Below are positions 8,621-61,883 of a DNA stretch of 64,000 bases, piece by piece (position 1 is the first letter of the stretch; the number at the start of each line of letters is the position of its first letter). Source of the DNA: Planktosalinus lacus. GTDB taxonomy: Bacteria; Bacteroidota; Bacteroidia; Flavobacteriales; Flavobacteriaceae. The notes beneath the pieces were generated by a model. That model did no database searches. It was given only the letters and a program-made list of their open reading frames with translations, and had not been told where the DNA came from. The stretch covers positions 124,001 to 188,000 of the forward strand of contig NZ_BMGK01000003.1 of the NCBI RefSeq assembly GCF_014640155.1, read 5' to 3'. The position numbers were made by a program, and so were the translations under genes.

Positions 8621-9607
8621 ATGTTAAAAATAGAATCCCTTTCCAAAAGTTATGACAAAGGAAAGTCCTTTGCTTTAAGAGACGTTAGTTTTCAGCTGGG
8701 CGAAGGCGATGTTTTTGCCATTGTTGGAGAAAGCGGAAGTGGTAAGACAACCTTAATACGTCTTATAGCCGGATTGGAAACCCCTGATACCGGAACAATT
8801 GAAATTAACGAGAAACTGGTTTCCTCTATTAAAAAAAATGTGGCAGCTGAAAAGCGCAATATTGGTTTTGTCTTTCAGGAGTATGCACTTTTTCCACATT
8901 TAAAACTTGAAGAAAACATTTTGTACGGTATTTCTAAATTAAAAAATAAAAAGCAACGTGCAAAAGAAGTACTGGAATTGGTGGGCTTATCAGAAATGAA
9001 AGACCGTTATCCACATCAGCTTTCAGGGGGACAGCAACAACGCGTAGCACTGGCAAGGGCATTGGCCCCAAACCCTTCACTGCTCATACTTGATGAGCCT
9101 TTCAGTAACCTGGATGCAATGCTGCGAGCACAATTGCGCAATGAAATTTTTAGAATAATCAAACAAAGCGGGGTGACTGCAATTTTTGTAACCCACGATA
9201 CACAAGATGCACTAGCCGTAGCCGATGAAATCCTAATTTTGCAAAACGGTAAATTGGTACAAAAAGATGCAGCGGCCAATTTATATACAAAACCAAGTTC
9301 TGTTTATGTAGCTTCGTTGTTTGGAAATACAATTCAGTTGAGTAAGGAACTACAATCGGCATTTGAATGCCCGTTAAAAACAGATTGTTGCCACGCGATT
9401 CGCAATGAAAATATTGCTATTAATGACGAATGTGATTATGTGACCAATGCCACGGTCCTCAAAAAGACATTTTTGGGTTCTGGCACTCAACTTTTGATTA
9501 AACTCGACAATGGTGAGCACTTAACGGTGGTCACAAAGCATACTCATATTGATGAGCGAATTACCATAGGTTTTAATTCCAAAGACGTTTTAGAATTTAA
9601 AGAATAA
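8621..9607 (+). CDS. fbpC: ferric iron ABC transporter ATP-binding protein
   Basis: A 328-residue ABC ATPase. It has Walker A GESGSGKTT at residues 36-44, a Q-loop (FVFQEYALFPH), signature LSGGQQQRVALARAL near residue 134, Walker B LLILDEPFSNLDA and the H-loop VTHDTQDA. The ~100-residue C-terminal extension is typical of FbpC/PotA-like ATPases and probably carries a regulatory TOBE-like fold. It starts 2 bases after the permease stop, so the three genes form one transcription unit ending at the terminator at 9609. It powers ferric iron uptake at the inner membrane. Confidence 0.92.
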   Translation: MLKIESLSKSYDKGKSFALRDVSFQLGEGDVFAIVGESGSGKTTLIRLIAGLETPDTGTIEINEKLVSSIKKNVAAEKRNIGFVFQEYALFPHLKLEENILYGISKLKNKKQRAKEVLELVGLSEMKDRYPHQLSGGQQQRVALARALAPNPSLLILDEPFSNLDAMLRAQLRNEIFRIIKQSGVTAIFVTHDTQDALAVADEILILQNGKLVQKDAAANLYTKPSSVYVASLFGNTIQLSKELQSAFECPLKTDCCHAIRNENIAINDECDYVTNATVLKKTFLGSGTQLLIKLDNGEHLTVVTKHTHIDERITIGFNSKDVLEFKE

Positions 9608-58153: not shown

Positions 58154-59017
58154 TTAAATAAACTTATGCTTGATTTTTTCCCAACGCAATTTACGTATGA
58201 ATGAGCCTTCATCTTTTGAAACAAGAAATTGAGAAGTGTTTTTTTTCGCTTTAAAATAACCATTAAGATAATCAAGTGTTAAAAATGGTTTTCCCTTTTT
58301 TAAAGCCAGCTTGAGAGAAGCAATTGTCGTTAACCAAAATCCATAACGCATTCGATAAAACGCTTCACCTTGTTTGTAGCGGGCGGTTTTATCATAGGTT
58401 TTTCCGGTGGGCTTTAAGTGTTTTACCAAAAGTGAAGCTTCCGTAATCACTTCCCAACCGTGAAATTGAGCCAAAAGCTCATCGGCCGTGTCCCATCCCA
58501 TGGCAGGCTTTAACCCGCCAATGTCTTTAAAACACGCTTTTCGATAAGCTTTTAGTGCCCCGCGAACATGGTCTTTGTTGGTGAGGTTTTCTATCTCCCA
58601 ACTACCGTTTTTATTAATAGTACAAAACCCTCCCGCCATACCGCACTTGGGATTGTTTGTAAAAATTTCAGCTATTTTTGCTAAATAATTTTCAGGAAAA
58701 ATCAGGTCGGCATCAAACTTACAGATAATGTCATAATCATCGTCTAAGGTTTCAAACCCTTTGTAAAAAGCATGGATGACTTTGCTTCCTGGAAGGTGTT
58801 TATCTTGAGAAGTGATATTCACTAATTGTATAAAAGGAAACTTCTTAGTACAACGAGATATTACTTCCGAAGTAGCGTCTGTGGAATGGTCATCCACAAC
58901 TACAATTTTCTTCGGAAGCAGTGTCTGGTTGGCTAAAGACATCAAAGTCTCCTGAATGTACTCGGCTTCGTTATGTGCCGGAATGACAATATAAAATTTC
59001 AATTCAGAAAGGTTCAA
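58154..59017 (-). CDS. glycosyltransferase family 2 protein
   Basis: A 287-residue GT-A enzyme. The nucleotide-sugar domain has FYIVIPAHNEAEYIQETLMS, IVVVDDHSTDATSEVISRC, the DXD-like CKFDADLIFPENYL and a downstream acceptor motif GWDTADELLAQFHGWEV. The C-terminal ~90 residues are basic. Substrates are unknown. The first codon is apparently TTG at 59017 with a GGAAGGAAC just upstream; no ATG exists near the conserved FYIVIPAHNE. It is convergent with pafA (22-base gap), and the duplicated lipoprotein gene lies directly upstream on the same strand. Confidence 0.88.
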   Translation of the reverse strand: MNLSELKFYIVIPAHNEAEYIQETLMSLANQTLLPKKIVVVDDHSTDATSEVISRCTKKFPFIQLVNITSQDKHLPGSKVIHAFYKGFETLDDDYDIICKFDADLIFPENYLAKIAEIFTNNPKCGMAGGFCTINKNGSWEIENLTNKDHVRGALKAYRKACFKDIGGLKPAMGWDTADELLAQFHGWEVITEASLLVKHLKPTGKTYDKTARYKQGEAFYRMRYGFWLTTIASLKLALKKGKPFLTLDYLNGYFKAKKNTSQFLVSKDEGSFIRKLRWEKIKHKFI

Positions 59018-59044: not shown

Positions 59045-59971
59045 TTAATTGCAACTCACATTGGGATTCCAGTCATAAAAAATACCACTGGGGTTTTCTG
59101 TTTCGGTCCAAACATGCAACGCCCAGATTTCAAGTTGTTCGTTTTGATGAAATTGCTGATTGAACAACAGGGGCGGTTCAGCATCGGCGGGATGAATTGC
59201 ATAAGGCACAATGTATTCTACCCCTAAAAATTCCATTTCGTCATTCTCATCAGGATTAAAAAGAAGCACTTGGGGTTCCAGATGATTCACGCGACCATCC
59301 ATATATTCCAATCGGGCAAAGTGATGACCCATTCCGCCTTCAGAGGGATGCTCCACACAGCCTGACAAATCTGTATCCCATCCGGCGTTTGTAGCAGTGT
59401 TAAAATCAACGTAGGCTGCAGTTTCTGTCCGTACCTGGTTGATGAGGTAGTTGATCCAGTTATCACAACTTACAGTGGGGTTAAAGTCTTCAAAGATGCC
59501 GTTGGCGTTTTCTTTTTCAGTCCAAACGTGCAGTGCCCAAATACCCAACTCCTGGTTAGCATGAAATTCTTGATAAAATAAAACCGGAGGCTCTTCATCG
59601 GCAGGTAAAATTTCAAAGGGAACGATATACTCAACTCCCAGAAACTCCATTTCTTCATTTTCATTCATTGCATACAGCAAAACTTGTGGTTCAAGATGAT
59701 TGACCCTTCCATCCATATATTCTAAACGGGCGTAGTGATGCCCCATACCACCGGCAGTAGGGTGTTCCACACAGCCTGACAGATCTGTATCCCAACCGGC
59801 ATTCATCGCAGTGTTGATGTTGTTAAACGATGAAGTAGTGCTTTTTACTTCCTGTATCATTTGTGCTATATGCTCTTCTTCAGAAAGTTGAGGCGCGCTG
59901 TCATCATCATTTGAACAGGAATTAAAAATAAATAAGATTGTTAATAAACTTAATAATTTCAAATTTTTCAT
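59045..59971 (-). CDS. lipoprotein made of two tandem copies of an uncharacterised domain
   Basis: A 308-residue predicted lipoprotein (LTILFIFNSC, lipid Cys19). The acidic residues after the lipid Cys (SNDDDS) are like the surface-export signal of flavobacterial lipoproteins. The mature protein is two copies of one ~138-residue domain (about 33-169 and 170-307). Each carries NAGWDTDLSGCVEHP, GGMGHH, ARLEYMDGRVNHLEPQVLL, EMEFLGVEYIVP, IWALHVWTE and a terminal NPxVSC. Each domain has paired Cys (67/169 and 205/307) and a GHH motif that could bind a metal. I do not know a named family. The adjacent gene is a diheme cytochrome c. ATG 59971 begins the signal peptide. Confidence 0.8.
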   Translation of the reverse strand: MKNLKLLSLLTILFIFNSCSNDDDSAPQLSEEEHIAQMIQEVKSTTSSFNNINTAMNAGWDTDLSGCVEHPTAGGMGHHYARLEYMDGRVNHLEPQVLLYAMNENEEMEFLGVEYIVPFEILPADEEPPVLFYQEFHANQELGIWALHVWTEKENANGIFEDFNPTVSCDNWINYLINQVRTETAAYVDFNTATNAGWDTDLSGCVEHPSEGGMGHHFARLEYMDGRVNHLEPQVLLFNPDENDEMEFLGVEYIVPYAIHPADAEPPLLFNQQFHQNEQLEIWALHVWTETENPSGIFYDWNPNVSCN

Positions 59972-60002
59972 AATTGTTTGTTTTCGTTCAGTATTGGTTC
60001 TT

Positions 60003-60980
60003 TTAGTTTGTTGCCGGTGTAAATCGCTCCACAACATTTTCATAAGGCTCCAGTGTTTTTAAATAGTCATAAATAGCACTGATATCTTCGGTCTTCATAT
60101 CTGCATACATTGCCCAAGGCATTAAAGTCTGGAATTCACCGGGTTTTACATCGGGAATCACATAGGTGGAATCTTCATATTTTTTAAATAAATGGATGAA
60201 ATCTGTACGGCTGAGGTTTTTGATGCCCGTTTCATGAGGCGTGAGGTTAGGTGTTCTAAGAACACTGCCATCGGGAAACTGAAATTTTCGTCCACCACCA
60301 CCTAAAGGACCTGTAAATTTTCCTTTTTCAAATTGGGTATGACACTCGGCACAGGCCGCTGCGGTAAACATATATTTGCCATAGGCAACACGATCTGTTT
60401 TTGGAGGTTTGGTTGAAAGTTCTGCTTCTTTGGGAAGGGTTCTTAAAATGAAATTAAAAGGAAAGTCTGCTTCCGATTTTGGGTGATTACTCTCCACGGG
60501 TTCCAATGTTCGTAAAAATGCAATCACAGCCTTTATATCTTCAGGGTCAAGTTTACCAAAATTGTGATAGGGCATCACGGGAAAAATAGGCTCACCATCG
60601 CGTTTTACTCCTGTAGTAATCAGCCTGAAGAGTTCACCATCTGTCCAGTCACCAATACCATGGGGAGTTATATTTGATGAAACAAACTTTCCGGGGAAAC
60701 CCATGGATTGGTCGAAAATATCTCCACCCACAAATTCGGTTCCGGGTGTGGGCGGACCTGAAAACTTTGAGAAATCACGTTCAGAATGGCAGTCGGCACA
60801 CATCATCACATGATATGCCAGATATTTGCCGCGCTCTATATTTTCAACAGAAGCCTCGACTTCAATATAAGGCGCATCGCTTACATTGGGAAGAGCAAAA
60901 CGGACAAAGAGTACCGCAATGAGGAGAAGAACCCCTATAGTGCAAAGAAGATACCCTGCAATTTTTAATGTTTTTTTCAT
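60003..60980 (-). CDS. membrane-anchored diheme cytochrome c
   Basis: A 325-residue protein with one N-terminal TM helix (residues ~6-30, IAGYLLCTIGVLLLIAVLFV) and a periplasmic domain. Two CxxCH heme sites are CADCH at 61-65 and CAECH at 210-214, each with a downstream Met-containing segment (PVMPYHNFGKLDPEDIKAVI and LMPWAMYADMKTEDISAIYDY). This arrangement resembles the diheme electron-carrier subunits of alcohol/aldehyde dehydrogenase-type complexes. No dehydrogenase subunit is adjacent, and its redox partner is unknown. The lipoprotein gene lies 31 bases downstream; the AraC gene lies 105 bases upstream. A CATCTTTG sequence (61011-61004), one mismatch from TAnnTTTG, lies 24 bases before the ATG. 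Confidence 0.88.
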   Translation of the reverse strand: MKKTLKIAGYLLCTIGVLLLIAVLFVRFALPNVSDAPYIEVEASVENIERGKYLAYHVMMCADCHSERDFSKFSGPPTPGTEFVGGDIFDQSMGFPGKFVSSNITPHGIGDWTDGELFRLITTGVKRDGEPIFPVMPYHNFGKLDPEDIKAVIAFLRTLEPVESNHPKSEADFPFNFILRTLPKEAELSTKPPKTDRVAYGKYMFTAAACAECHTQFEKGKFTGPLGGGGRKFQFPDGSVLRTPNLTPHETGIKNLSRTDFIHLFKKYEDSTYVIPDVKPGEFQTLMPWAMYADMKTEDISAIYDYLKTLEPYENVVERFTPATN

Positions 60981-61085
60981 TGTAATGGGTTATTATGGTT
61001 ATACAAAGATGAAGGTATAAACACTGTTTTTCCATACAAAAAAGGCAGTATCCCATATAAAAAATGGAAAATGAGGGGCTTTTAT

Positions 61086-61883
61086 TTATACTATGCGGAA
61101 ATCGCTAGGAGCTATTCCCGTGCTTTTTTTAAAAAAGTTACTAAAGTGAAAGGGTTCATTGAACCCTAAGTAAAGTGCTATTTCTTTGATGCTTCTGTCA
61201 GTAAATTTTAAATCGCGACGGGCATGCATCAATAATTGTTCTTTAATGAGATGTTTTGCTGTGACACCCATTACATTTTTGACATGTTGATTGAGATATT
61301 TTGATGAAATATGCATTGCATCTGCATAGTCACTTACCTTATGCCATTTGTGGTAATGTTTTGAAACCAGGTTTTTATATGTCAAAACTGTATTGAGTTC
61401 GTGTGAGTTTTGATCTTTATTGGGATTGATATTGCACTTGCTGTCACAATAAATCAAAATTGTTCTTAGGAGAGAAAACATCCCGTTTTCTTTATTTGGA
61501 ATATTTGAGCCTGACATTTCATCAATCATTTCAAACATAGCCTGAACCCGCAAACCAATTTTTGGACTTAAAACAATTTTTGGTATTTGACCCATTGCAT
61601 AATAGATCATAGCGTCTTTAATAATCAAGGGTTCAAAACCCAGTAAATCGAAATAGTCTTTGCTAAATTCCAATACCCAGCCACACATATTATGTTGACA
61701 ATGGAGTTCAATATTTTTCTCTGGGATTGTAAATATGATTAGGTTTGGATAGCCGGAAATATCTTCACCATCAATTTTCACTTTATCCAAACCTTCAGAA
61801 AACCAAAATACCCTGTACACCTCATTAGAGGTTTTAAAGTTGATATCTTTTGTTAGTCTTTTTATATTTAAAATTCCTTTCAT
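61086..61883 (-). CDS. AraC family transcriptional regulator
   Basis: A 265-residue regulator. The N-terminal ~160 residues form a cupin-like sensing domain (VYRVFWFSEGLDKVKIDG, HCQHNMCGWVLEFSKDYFDLL). The C-terminal ~100 residues carry the double helix-turn-helix: VSDYADAMHISSKYLNQHVKNVMG and SIKEIALYLGFNEPFHFSNFFKKSTGIAPSDFR. The ligand is unknown. It precedes the cytochrome/lipoprotein pair on the same strand (105-base gap), so these are likely targets, but autoregulation alone is also possible. Confidence 0.92.
   Translation of the reverse strand: MKGILNIKRLTKDINFKTSNEVYRVFWFSEGLDKVKIDGEDISGYPNLIIFTIPEKNIELHCQHNMCGWVLEFSKDYFDLLGFEPLIIKDAMIYYAMGQIPKIVLSPKIGLRVQAMFEMIDEMSGSNIPNKENGMFSLLRTILIYCDSKCNINPNKDQNSHELNTVLTYKNLVSKHYHKWHKVSDYADAMHISSKYLNQHVKNVMGVTAKHLIKEQLLMHARRDLKFTDRSIKEIALYLGFNEPFHFSNFFKKSTGIAPSDFRIV

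Follow-up and report, generated by a model that had tools for sequence, protein, structure and literature searches.

An unnamed duplicated domain beside a diheme cytochrome c and an AraC-family regulator in Planktosalinus lacus, and its candidate His/Glu/His site

Does a lipoprotein gene that lies next to a diheme cytochrome c gene and an AraC-family regulator gene encode one half of a dedicated electron-transfer module, or a protein with a task of its own for which the cytochrome is an exchangeable companion? The question arises from a 64,000-nucleotide (nt) stretch of Planktosalinus lacus, called the window here (contig NZ_BMGK01000003.1 of assembly GCF_014640155.1, forward positions 124,001-188,000), for which an earlier note had proposed such a module under AraC control. 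The lipoprotein carries two copies of a domain with three near-invariant residues, His48, Glu83 and His117, and its relatives recur on the same strand as a diheme cytochrome, a cupin or an SCO4226-like protein. The adjacency holds up among relatives, yet the partner can be exchanged, which argues for a protein of an inducible unit rather than one half of a fixed electron-transfer pair. I therefore tentatively favour, at somewhat less than an even chance, a small extracytoplasmic protein that binds a metal or ligand at a His/Glu/His site and is part of a stress or catabolic unit that can be induced; the cytochrome would be one partner among several that can replace one another. The features are as follows, all on the minus strand.

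59045..59971, minus strand: lipoprotein of 308 amino acids (aa) with two tandem copies of the unnamed domain (open reading frame (ORF) reading, family searches)
59915..59971, minus strand: lipoprotein signal peptide up to Cys19, then SNDDD (sequence, compared with the lipoprotein export signal (LES) consensus motifs in the accessible part of PMC5080379)
59465..59884, minus strand: domain copy A, residues 30-169 (copy alignment, family alignment)
59048..59464, minus strand: domain copy B, residues 170-308 (alignment; AlphaFold2 model with a mean predicted local distance difference test score (pLDDT) of 96.8)
59321..59323, minus strand: His48 of copy B, in the proposed His/Glu/His site (kept in 116/119 copies)
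59216..59218, minus strand: Glu83 of copy B (kept in 117/119 copies)
59114..59116, minus strand: His117 of copy B (kept in 117/119 copies)
60003..60980, minus strand: membrane-anchored diheme cytochrome c, 325 aa, two CXXCH motifs (Pfam, phmmer, relatives)
61086..61883, minus strand: AraC-family regulator, 265 aa (Pfam, NCBIfam; relatives adjoin the domain elsewhere)
58154..59017, minus strand: family-2 glycosyltransferase, 27 nt downstream of the lipoprotein gene (ORF list, Pfam; possible read-through)

The domain family and its conserved residues

The description of the three genes in the earlier note held up. All are open on the minus strand, and the lipoprotein ORF covers 59045-60043, with the ATG at 59971 as its most likely start; Cys19 closes what reads as a lipoprotein-type signal peptide, and copies A and B are 70% identical to each other. 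The domain, of ~135 residues, had been called uncharacterised, and the databases agree: the window lipoprotein reaches no Pfam or NCBIfam model over cut-off, 69 aligned members give no Pfam or NCBIfam match at E < 0.04, and no sequence relative is found in the PDB at E < 1. A hit to a known non-redox family, which had been named as a possible refutation of the module, did not appear at significance in the Pfam, NCBIfam and PDB searches. Matches of the lipoprotein at E up to 1 (DNA_pol_B_thumb, ETRAMP, PUD, BSAP5b and others) were confined to the signal peptide or to short segments, scored well under the cut-offs and were discarded; chitin deacetylase, the sole PDB profile match, was rejected at E 1.1. 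Literature searches found nothing on the domain, and neither did the accessible part of a review of copper signalling (PMC10141476).

The domain is a widespread unnamed family whose members are probably exported from the cytoplasm; by eye, and uncounted, many of them start with a signal peptide, a lipobox or a twin-arginine motif. Within the window's family, 24 of 397 genomes have it (the window's own among them, and including a very remote match in G282, E 5.7e-4, locus L064), and none of four other genomes of the same genus does. One of three matches in 60 genomes (G026, E 6.5e-4, residues 1-45) was a signal-peptide match and was not counted as a relative. The GTDB genome set yielded 97 confirmed stretches, of which the best 80 were kept; these span Bacteroidota, Balneolota, Ignavibacteriota, Pseudomonadota, Gemmatimonadota, Chloroflexota, Actinobacteria and Acidobacteria. 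Five plasmid records carry the domain (Gemmatirosa, two rhizobial genera and two haloarchaea). On viral contigs all 10 candidate stretches failed confirmation, and one phage record holds a match at 26% identity. A copy on a Limimaricola plasmid (L204:5929-6510) lies among genes for a 2-hydroxyacid dehydrogenase, a fumarylacetoacetate hydrolase and a TRAP transporter and 4-hydroxybenzoate genes.

Residue conservation was scored over 119 domain copies, which come from 109 proteins. Every copy has Pro64, 116 have His48, and Glu83, His117, Trp119 and Asn124 are kept in 117 each. Cys36 is found in 94 copies and Cys138 in 93, the other 26 showing a gap at the Cys138 position. The only copies without Glu83 and His117 are the same two neighbouring L063 paralogues, and both also lack His48; this joint loss suggests that the three residues share one site. 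The two adjacent genes (L063:7999-8577 and 8852-9565, minus strand) form a natural dead-site pair. The paired Cys, with the GHH motif, had been read earlier as a hint of metal binding or disulfide chemistry; because the pair is less conserved than His48, Glu83 and His117, a structural disulfide in most members is more likely.

An AlphaFold2 model of the domain, built on 69 sequences, is confident (mean pLDDT 96.8, predicted template modelling score (pTM) 0.90) and has helices at the N-terminus followed by mostly beta structure; in its listed elements His48, Glu83 and His117 each lie on a different strand. Each domain would accordingly be a small alpha+beta protein, closed in most members by a C36-C138 disulfide, in which the three residues, together with Trp119, may form one site for a metal ion and/or a small molecule. 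The two-domain model reached a pLDDT of 90.0 and a pTM of 0.70.

Exchangeable partners of the domain gene

Neighbour genes were counted within 3 kb at 109 loci, the window excluded; the 24 closest loci are L065-L087 and L119. Left out were L039, which sits at the same position as L080, and L126, which yielded no domain gene; L061 was also omitted from the 250-nt neighbour list, and L104 and L126 are fragments outside the 24 closest loci. At 14 of these 24 loci the gene immediately before the domain gene, in the same orientation, encodes a relative of the window's cytochrome, so that the refutation by lack of conserved adjacency, as foreseen in the earlier note, fails. These 14 cytochromes match the window's at phmmer 3.9e-58 to 1.8e-155 (L068 and L070 being fragments at a contig end), and they come from Parapedobacter, Saprospirales, Flavobacteriales/Cryomorphaceae, Algoriphagus hitonicola and Balneolota. 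The gap to the domain gene is below 100 nt in 12 of the 14, a doubtful 63-aa ORF intervenes in L078, and alignment of five of the cytochromes gave 49-66% identity to the window's. The full order of AraC, cytochrome and domain gene is found again in Algoriphagus (L072).

The cytochrome is one same-strand partner among several: 14 of the 109 loci have the diheme cytochrome, 15 a cupin, 11 an SCO4226-like gene, five an AraC relative and three a single-heme cytochrome. Genes up to two places from the domain (n = 400) were compared with those farther away (n = 824), using the window's own proteins as queries for the cytochrome and AraC counts, which gave 14 v 0 for the diheme cytochrome, 5 v 0 for AraC, 3 v 0 for the single-heme cytochrome and 18 v 5 for any CXXCH protein. 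The cupin (15 v 0) and SCO4226-like (11 v 1) models were made from the neighbours themselves, which renders those two enrichments partly circular, and related loci are not independent. A Pfam scan, in agreement with these counts, took in 78 of 93 same-strand neighbours within 250 nt plus two others, 15 being left out. Among 41 neighbours, mostly from Bacteroidota and Balneolota loci, it found Cytochrom_C in 16, Cupin_2 in 14 and SCO4226-like in two, and among 39 neighbours from other loci SCO4226-like in five and a GMC oxidoreductase domain in two.

Regulatory genes also occur around the domain. In the window, the AraC regulator has a C-terminal helix-turn-helix (HTH_18, E 1.6e-21, 76.8 bits against a cut-off of 33.6), and its best NCBIfam match is HpaA, a regulator of hydroxyphenylacetate catabolism, at 92.7 bits, far under the cut-off of 274.65. 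By eye, a kinase-like gene and a response regulator lie upstream of the cytochrome in L065, L069, L071, L073, L074 and L087, the kinase gene of L087 being truncated, while several Balneolota have a divergent sigma-factor-like gene. In Flavobacteriaceae L040-L042, L045-L048 and L050, the domain gene, mostly with a cupin gene, is divergent from a gene of ~950 aa; L051 has a similar ~950-aa gene on the same strand, which is the likely source of the Pfam matches to a 7TM sensor histidine kinase and a response regulator.

Within the window, 105 nt separate AraC from the cytochrome gene, 31 nt the cytochrome from the lipoprotein gene and 27 nt the lipoprotein from the glycosyltransferase gene, all co-directional. 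With the glycosyltransferase so close and in the same direction, the transcript may extend one gene further, and in the relatives' loci listed this gene was not noticed as a neighbour of the domain. Promoter and terminator matches were no commoner than in shuffles, and the DNA of the locus is single-copy in the genome.

Distant kin of the domain

Two families came up as possible distant kin, DUF1264 by profile and TTHB210 by fold. DUF1264 (PF06884) appeared in the Pfam scan for two of 69 members, at best with E 0.053 and far under the curated cut-off; the window protein did not match it at E up to 1, and a Pfam rescan of 10 chosen members gave no DUF1264 match. No DUF1264 protein was found in 119 genomes of the class, in the 26 genomes behind the loci or in 149 genomes of the phylum of a Nocardioides locus; five of 299 genomes then had one, four of which entered the comparison, the fifth being split in two pieces. 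With hhalign, the family profile matched the four sequences at p 0.0016 with a score of 26.2, a score not reached in any of 100 column shuffles (best 22.5), and controls (cupin, SCO4226-like, reversed) gave p 0.3-0.47. HMMER scores for the four were 10.1, 9.9, 9.3 and 5.5 bits, and one of 2000 letter shuffles reached 10.1. In the alignments, the HHY and GVEYIIS motifs of DUF1264 lie over His48 and Glu83 of the domain, and its WHTW lies over His117-x-Trp119 in a lenient alignment only; DUF1264 differs by a long insertion before this last motif. The profile comparison thus suggests distant kinship between the domain and DUF1264, the family of the oil-body-associated proteins (OBAP) of plants and their bacterial relatives.

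TTHB210 of Thermus thermophilus (PDB 3vg8, PF18197/DUF5602) was the top, weak, fold match of both domain models. Foldseek against the PDB and viral models gave no match at E 0.001, which is not proof of a new fold. A second aligner placed TTHB210 first for both models: once with Z 3.8 over 81 residues at an rmsd of 4.0, the next row scoring 2.4, and once with Z 3.6 over 82 residues at an rmsd of 4.2, where the next row, at 2.8, is formally tied. Both matches are weak, as a Z below 8 may reflect a mere common arrangement. A cytochrome P460 row (Z 2.1) was weighed and not used. None of the 69 members matched PF18197 at E up to 0.1. The profile score of the short, TTHB210-like form was equalled by two of 60 column shuffles, that of the long DUF5602 form by one of 60. 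As shuffles reach the sequence-profile score, TTHB210 is held as a weak fold lead only, and sequence kinship is set aside. A further likeness lies in a sigma-factor-linked neighbourhood, for the TTHB210 gene adjoins sigma-factor and anti-sigma genes; the protein is a homodecamer under sigma-E control. Three of four alphaproteobacterial plasmid loci have a TTHB210-like (DUF5602) gene directly before a plastocyanin/azurin gene (L146, L147 and L149, from Microvirga, Mesorhizobium and Roseibium), Thioclava being the exception. The TTHB210-like profile A4 matched two of 200 genomes and, like a weak Deinococcus match, was not used.

SCO4226-like proteins (PF14026/DUF4242), by contrast, are neighbours of the domain and not its homologues (profile p 0.3). 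SCO4226 itself is reported to bind nickel (PMC4186839). Taken with the cupins and the azurin-linked relatives of TTHB210, this nickel binding points to metal or redox chemistry.

Weighing the readings

Under the tentatively favoured reading, a small-molecule or stress signal would switch the domain gene on, here via AraC, and the His/Glu/His site would probably perform or support an extracytoplasmic redox or detoxification step. The co-expressed accessory would differ by lineage, being a diheme cytochrome c here and a cupin or an SCO4226-like protein elsewhere; in Bacteroidota, a surface protein and an inner-membrane cytochrome may serve the same response without contact. Several points weigh against this account, besides the partial circularity of the two enrichments given above. 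At 67 of the 109 loci no scored partner lies within 3 kb, some contigs ending early, so that many copies may act without these partners. The haloarchaeal L008 has Pro in place of His48, the sole His48 exception outside L063; in the weak alignment of TTHB210 to the domain, the first His and the Glu have no counterpart; and the three residues are presumed to meet in space. SCO4226, finally, is reported to be down-regulated under oxidative stress and controlled by PhoRP in Streptomyces (PMC4991794), and hence a simple oxidative-stress role is not favoured.

The rival that survives best, rather unlikely as I judge it, is a non-redox surface protein that binds a carbohydrate or another ligand and whose gene is induced along with a catabolic or stress unit; the conserved residues would then be a binding or structural site. 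Surface-export-like signals would suit such a protein, as would the hydroxyacid, aromatic-acid and TRAP-transport genes around the Limimaricola copy and the repeated tandem duplication or copy correction of the domain. Tandem duplication of small domains is common in binding proteins. Two domain copies were recognised in 10 others among 101 domain proteins (window included), one of them cut by a contig end; tandem proteins include those of the window (59048-59917), L066, L068, L070, L072, L078 and L082-L085. A tree was built from 14 single-domain proteins and the 20 copies of ten tandem ones (own counted), and in it A and B copies did not separate: seven changes were needed, the same as in shuffles, three of them forced by well-supported branches. 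The L066 copies are mutual nearest relatives (99/96), and in Balneolaceae several A and B copies cluster by position with moderate support. This mixing indicates that duplication or copy correction occurred more than once. The recurring cytochrome, cupin and SCO4226-like partners speak against a non-redox binder, as do the His and Glu motifs that are apparently common to DUF1264.

A dedicated electron-transfer module, in which the domain either takes electrons from a substrate or carries them and passes them straight on to the diheme cytochrome, is improbable. It is in keeping with the 14 of 24 closest loci, in both Bacteroidota and Balneolota, that have the cytochrome directly upstream on the same strand. 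The cytochrome itself had been assigned correctly in the earlier note (Cytochrom_C, PF00034, E 1e-11, 46.4 bits against a cut-off of 21.3; two CXXCH motifs, as expected of a c-type protein; a hydrophobic N-terminal anchor and no lipobox by inspection). Its sequence relatives in the PDB are the cytochrome subunits of membrane dehydrogenases for fructose, glucose, aldehyde and alcohol (e.g. 7w2j chain C; phmmer E 7.2e-29), and two of 39 scanned neighbours from other phyla match a GMC oxidoreductase, one in L091 and the other, assigned by its 87% identity to the first, in L102, both Wenzhouxiangella and both on the same strand within 250 nt; these points, too, favour the module. The cytochrome subunits of those dehydrogenases carry three hemes, whereas the window cytochrome has two CXXCH motifs and no dehydrogenase subunit was recognised beside it. 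In line with the earlier note, no extracytoplasmic dehydrogenase was found among seven Pfam-scanned genes at 56-64 kb, the rest of the window being judged by eye only; among the window's called genes of at least 100 aa, CXXCH was flagged in the cytochrome only.

Three observations tell against the module. Firstly, other copies of the domain have a cupin (15/109) or an SCO4226-like partner (11/109) and mostly no such cytochrome nearby. Secondly, the cytochrome is widespread, and the relatives looked at mostly stand without the domain. Its family occurs at E 1e-50 or better in 53 of 247 Bacteroidota genomes (own counted), and 27 of the best 29 of 54 other matches, which were opened, have no domain gene in flanks of up to ~1.5 kb; the two that do are L179 and L180, and since L180 is apparently L079, L179 is the sole further case. 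In L175, AraC and a diheme cytochrome 66% identical to the window's stand without a domain gene alongside. Thirdly, the location signals differ. The C-SNDDDS start of the lipoprotein has the polar and acidic residues after Cys that mark Bacteroidota surface lipoproteins, for which the accessible part of PMC5080379 gives the export signals SDDDD and SDDFE. All 10 cytochrome-paired Bacteroidota proteins, own counted, have at least two acidic residues within five after the lipid Cys (eight by script, L069 and L071 by eye), and the lipoprotein is probably on the cell surface in this phylum, while the cytochrome looks anchored in the inner membrane; this makes direct electron transfer doubtful. The five cytochrome-paired Balneolota proteins (four by script, L083 by eye) have none or one, which limits the location argument to Bacteroidota. 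Of the overall interpretation in the earlier note, the conserved adjacency, the recurring AraC and the absence of a non-redox family match thus stand, and the dedicated electron-transfer module is not supported.

Metal handling, in which the extracytoplasmic domain would store, deliver or sense a transition metal (Ni, Cu, Fe) on behalf of its partners, is likewise improbable. The His/Glu/His conservation, the cupin and SCO4226-like (nickel-binding family) neighbours and the azurin neighbours of TTHB210-like genes would fit; against it, there are just three near-invariant ligand-type residues besides the Cys pair, and no metal transporter is among the 25 most frequent neighbour families listed for each of the two Pfam scans. 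That the three genes adjoin by chance, or travel as a mobile cassette with no functional link between them, as the sporadic spread of the domain (0/4 genomes of the genus, 24/397 of the family) might suggest, is the least probable account, given the cytochrome-domain order in 14 loci with short gaps in 12, though the five aligned cytochromes are only 49-66% identical, and the recurrence of the three-gene order in Algoriphagus.

The favoured reading, of a His/Glu/His protein in an inducible unit, can be extended to a bolder one, which I regard as unlikely: the domain would be a large branch of a superfamily of His/Glu/His metal proteins that includes DUF1264 and TTHB210, which bacteria combine with one or another redox or metal partner (diheme cytochrome, cupin, nickel-binding protein, azurin) and use outside the cytoplasm as an inducible enzyme of defence or catabolism. 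The domain ranges from Flavobacteria to haloarchaea and has three near-invariant, functional-looking residues, yet no Pfam or NCBIfam model reaches it over cut-off, and the conserved link to the diheme cytochrome, together with the cupin and SCO4226-like swaps, opens its function to direct experiment. Should the weak kinship with DUF1264 and TTHB210 hold, a single biochemical experiment would bear on three unexplained families, among them one tied to plant oil bodies; and if the superfamily reading is true, solving the domain would give the first biochemical clue to the plant oil-body proteins.

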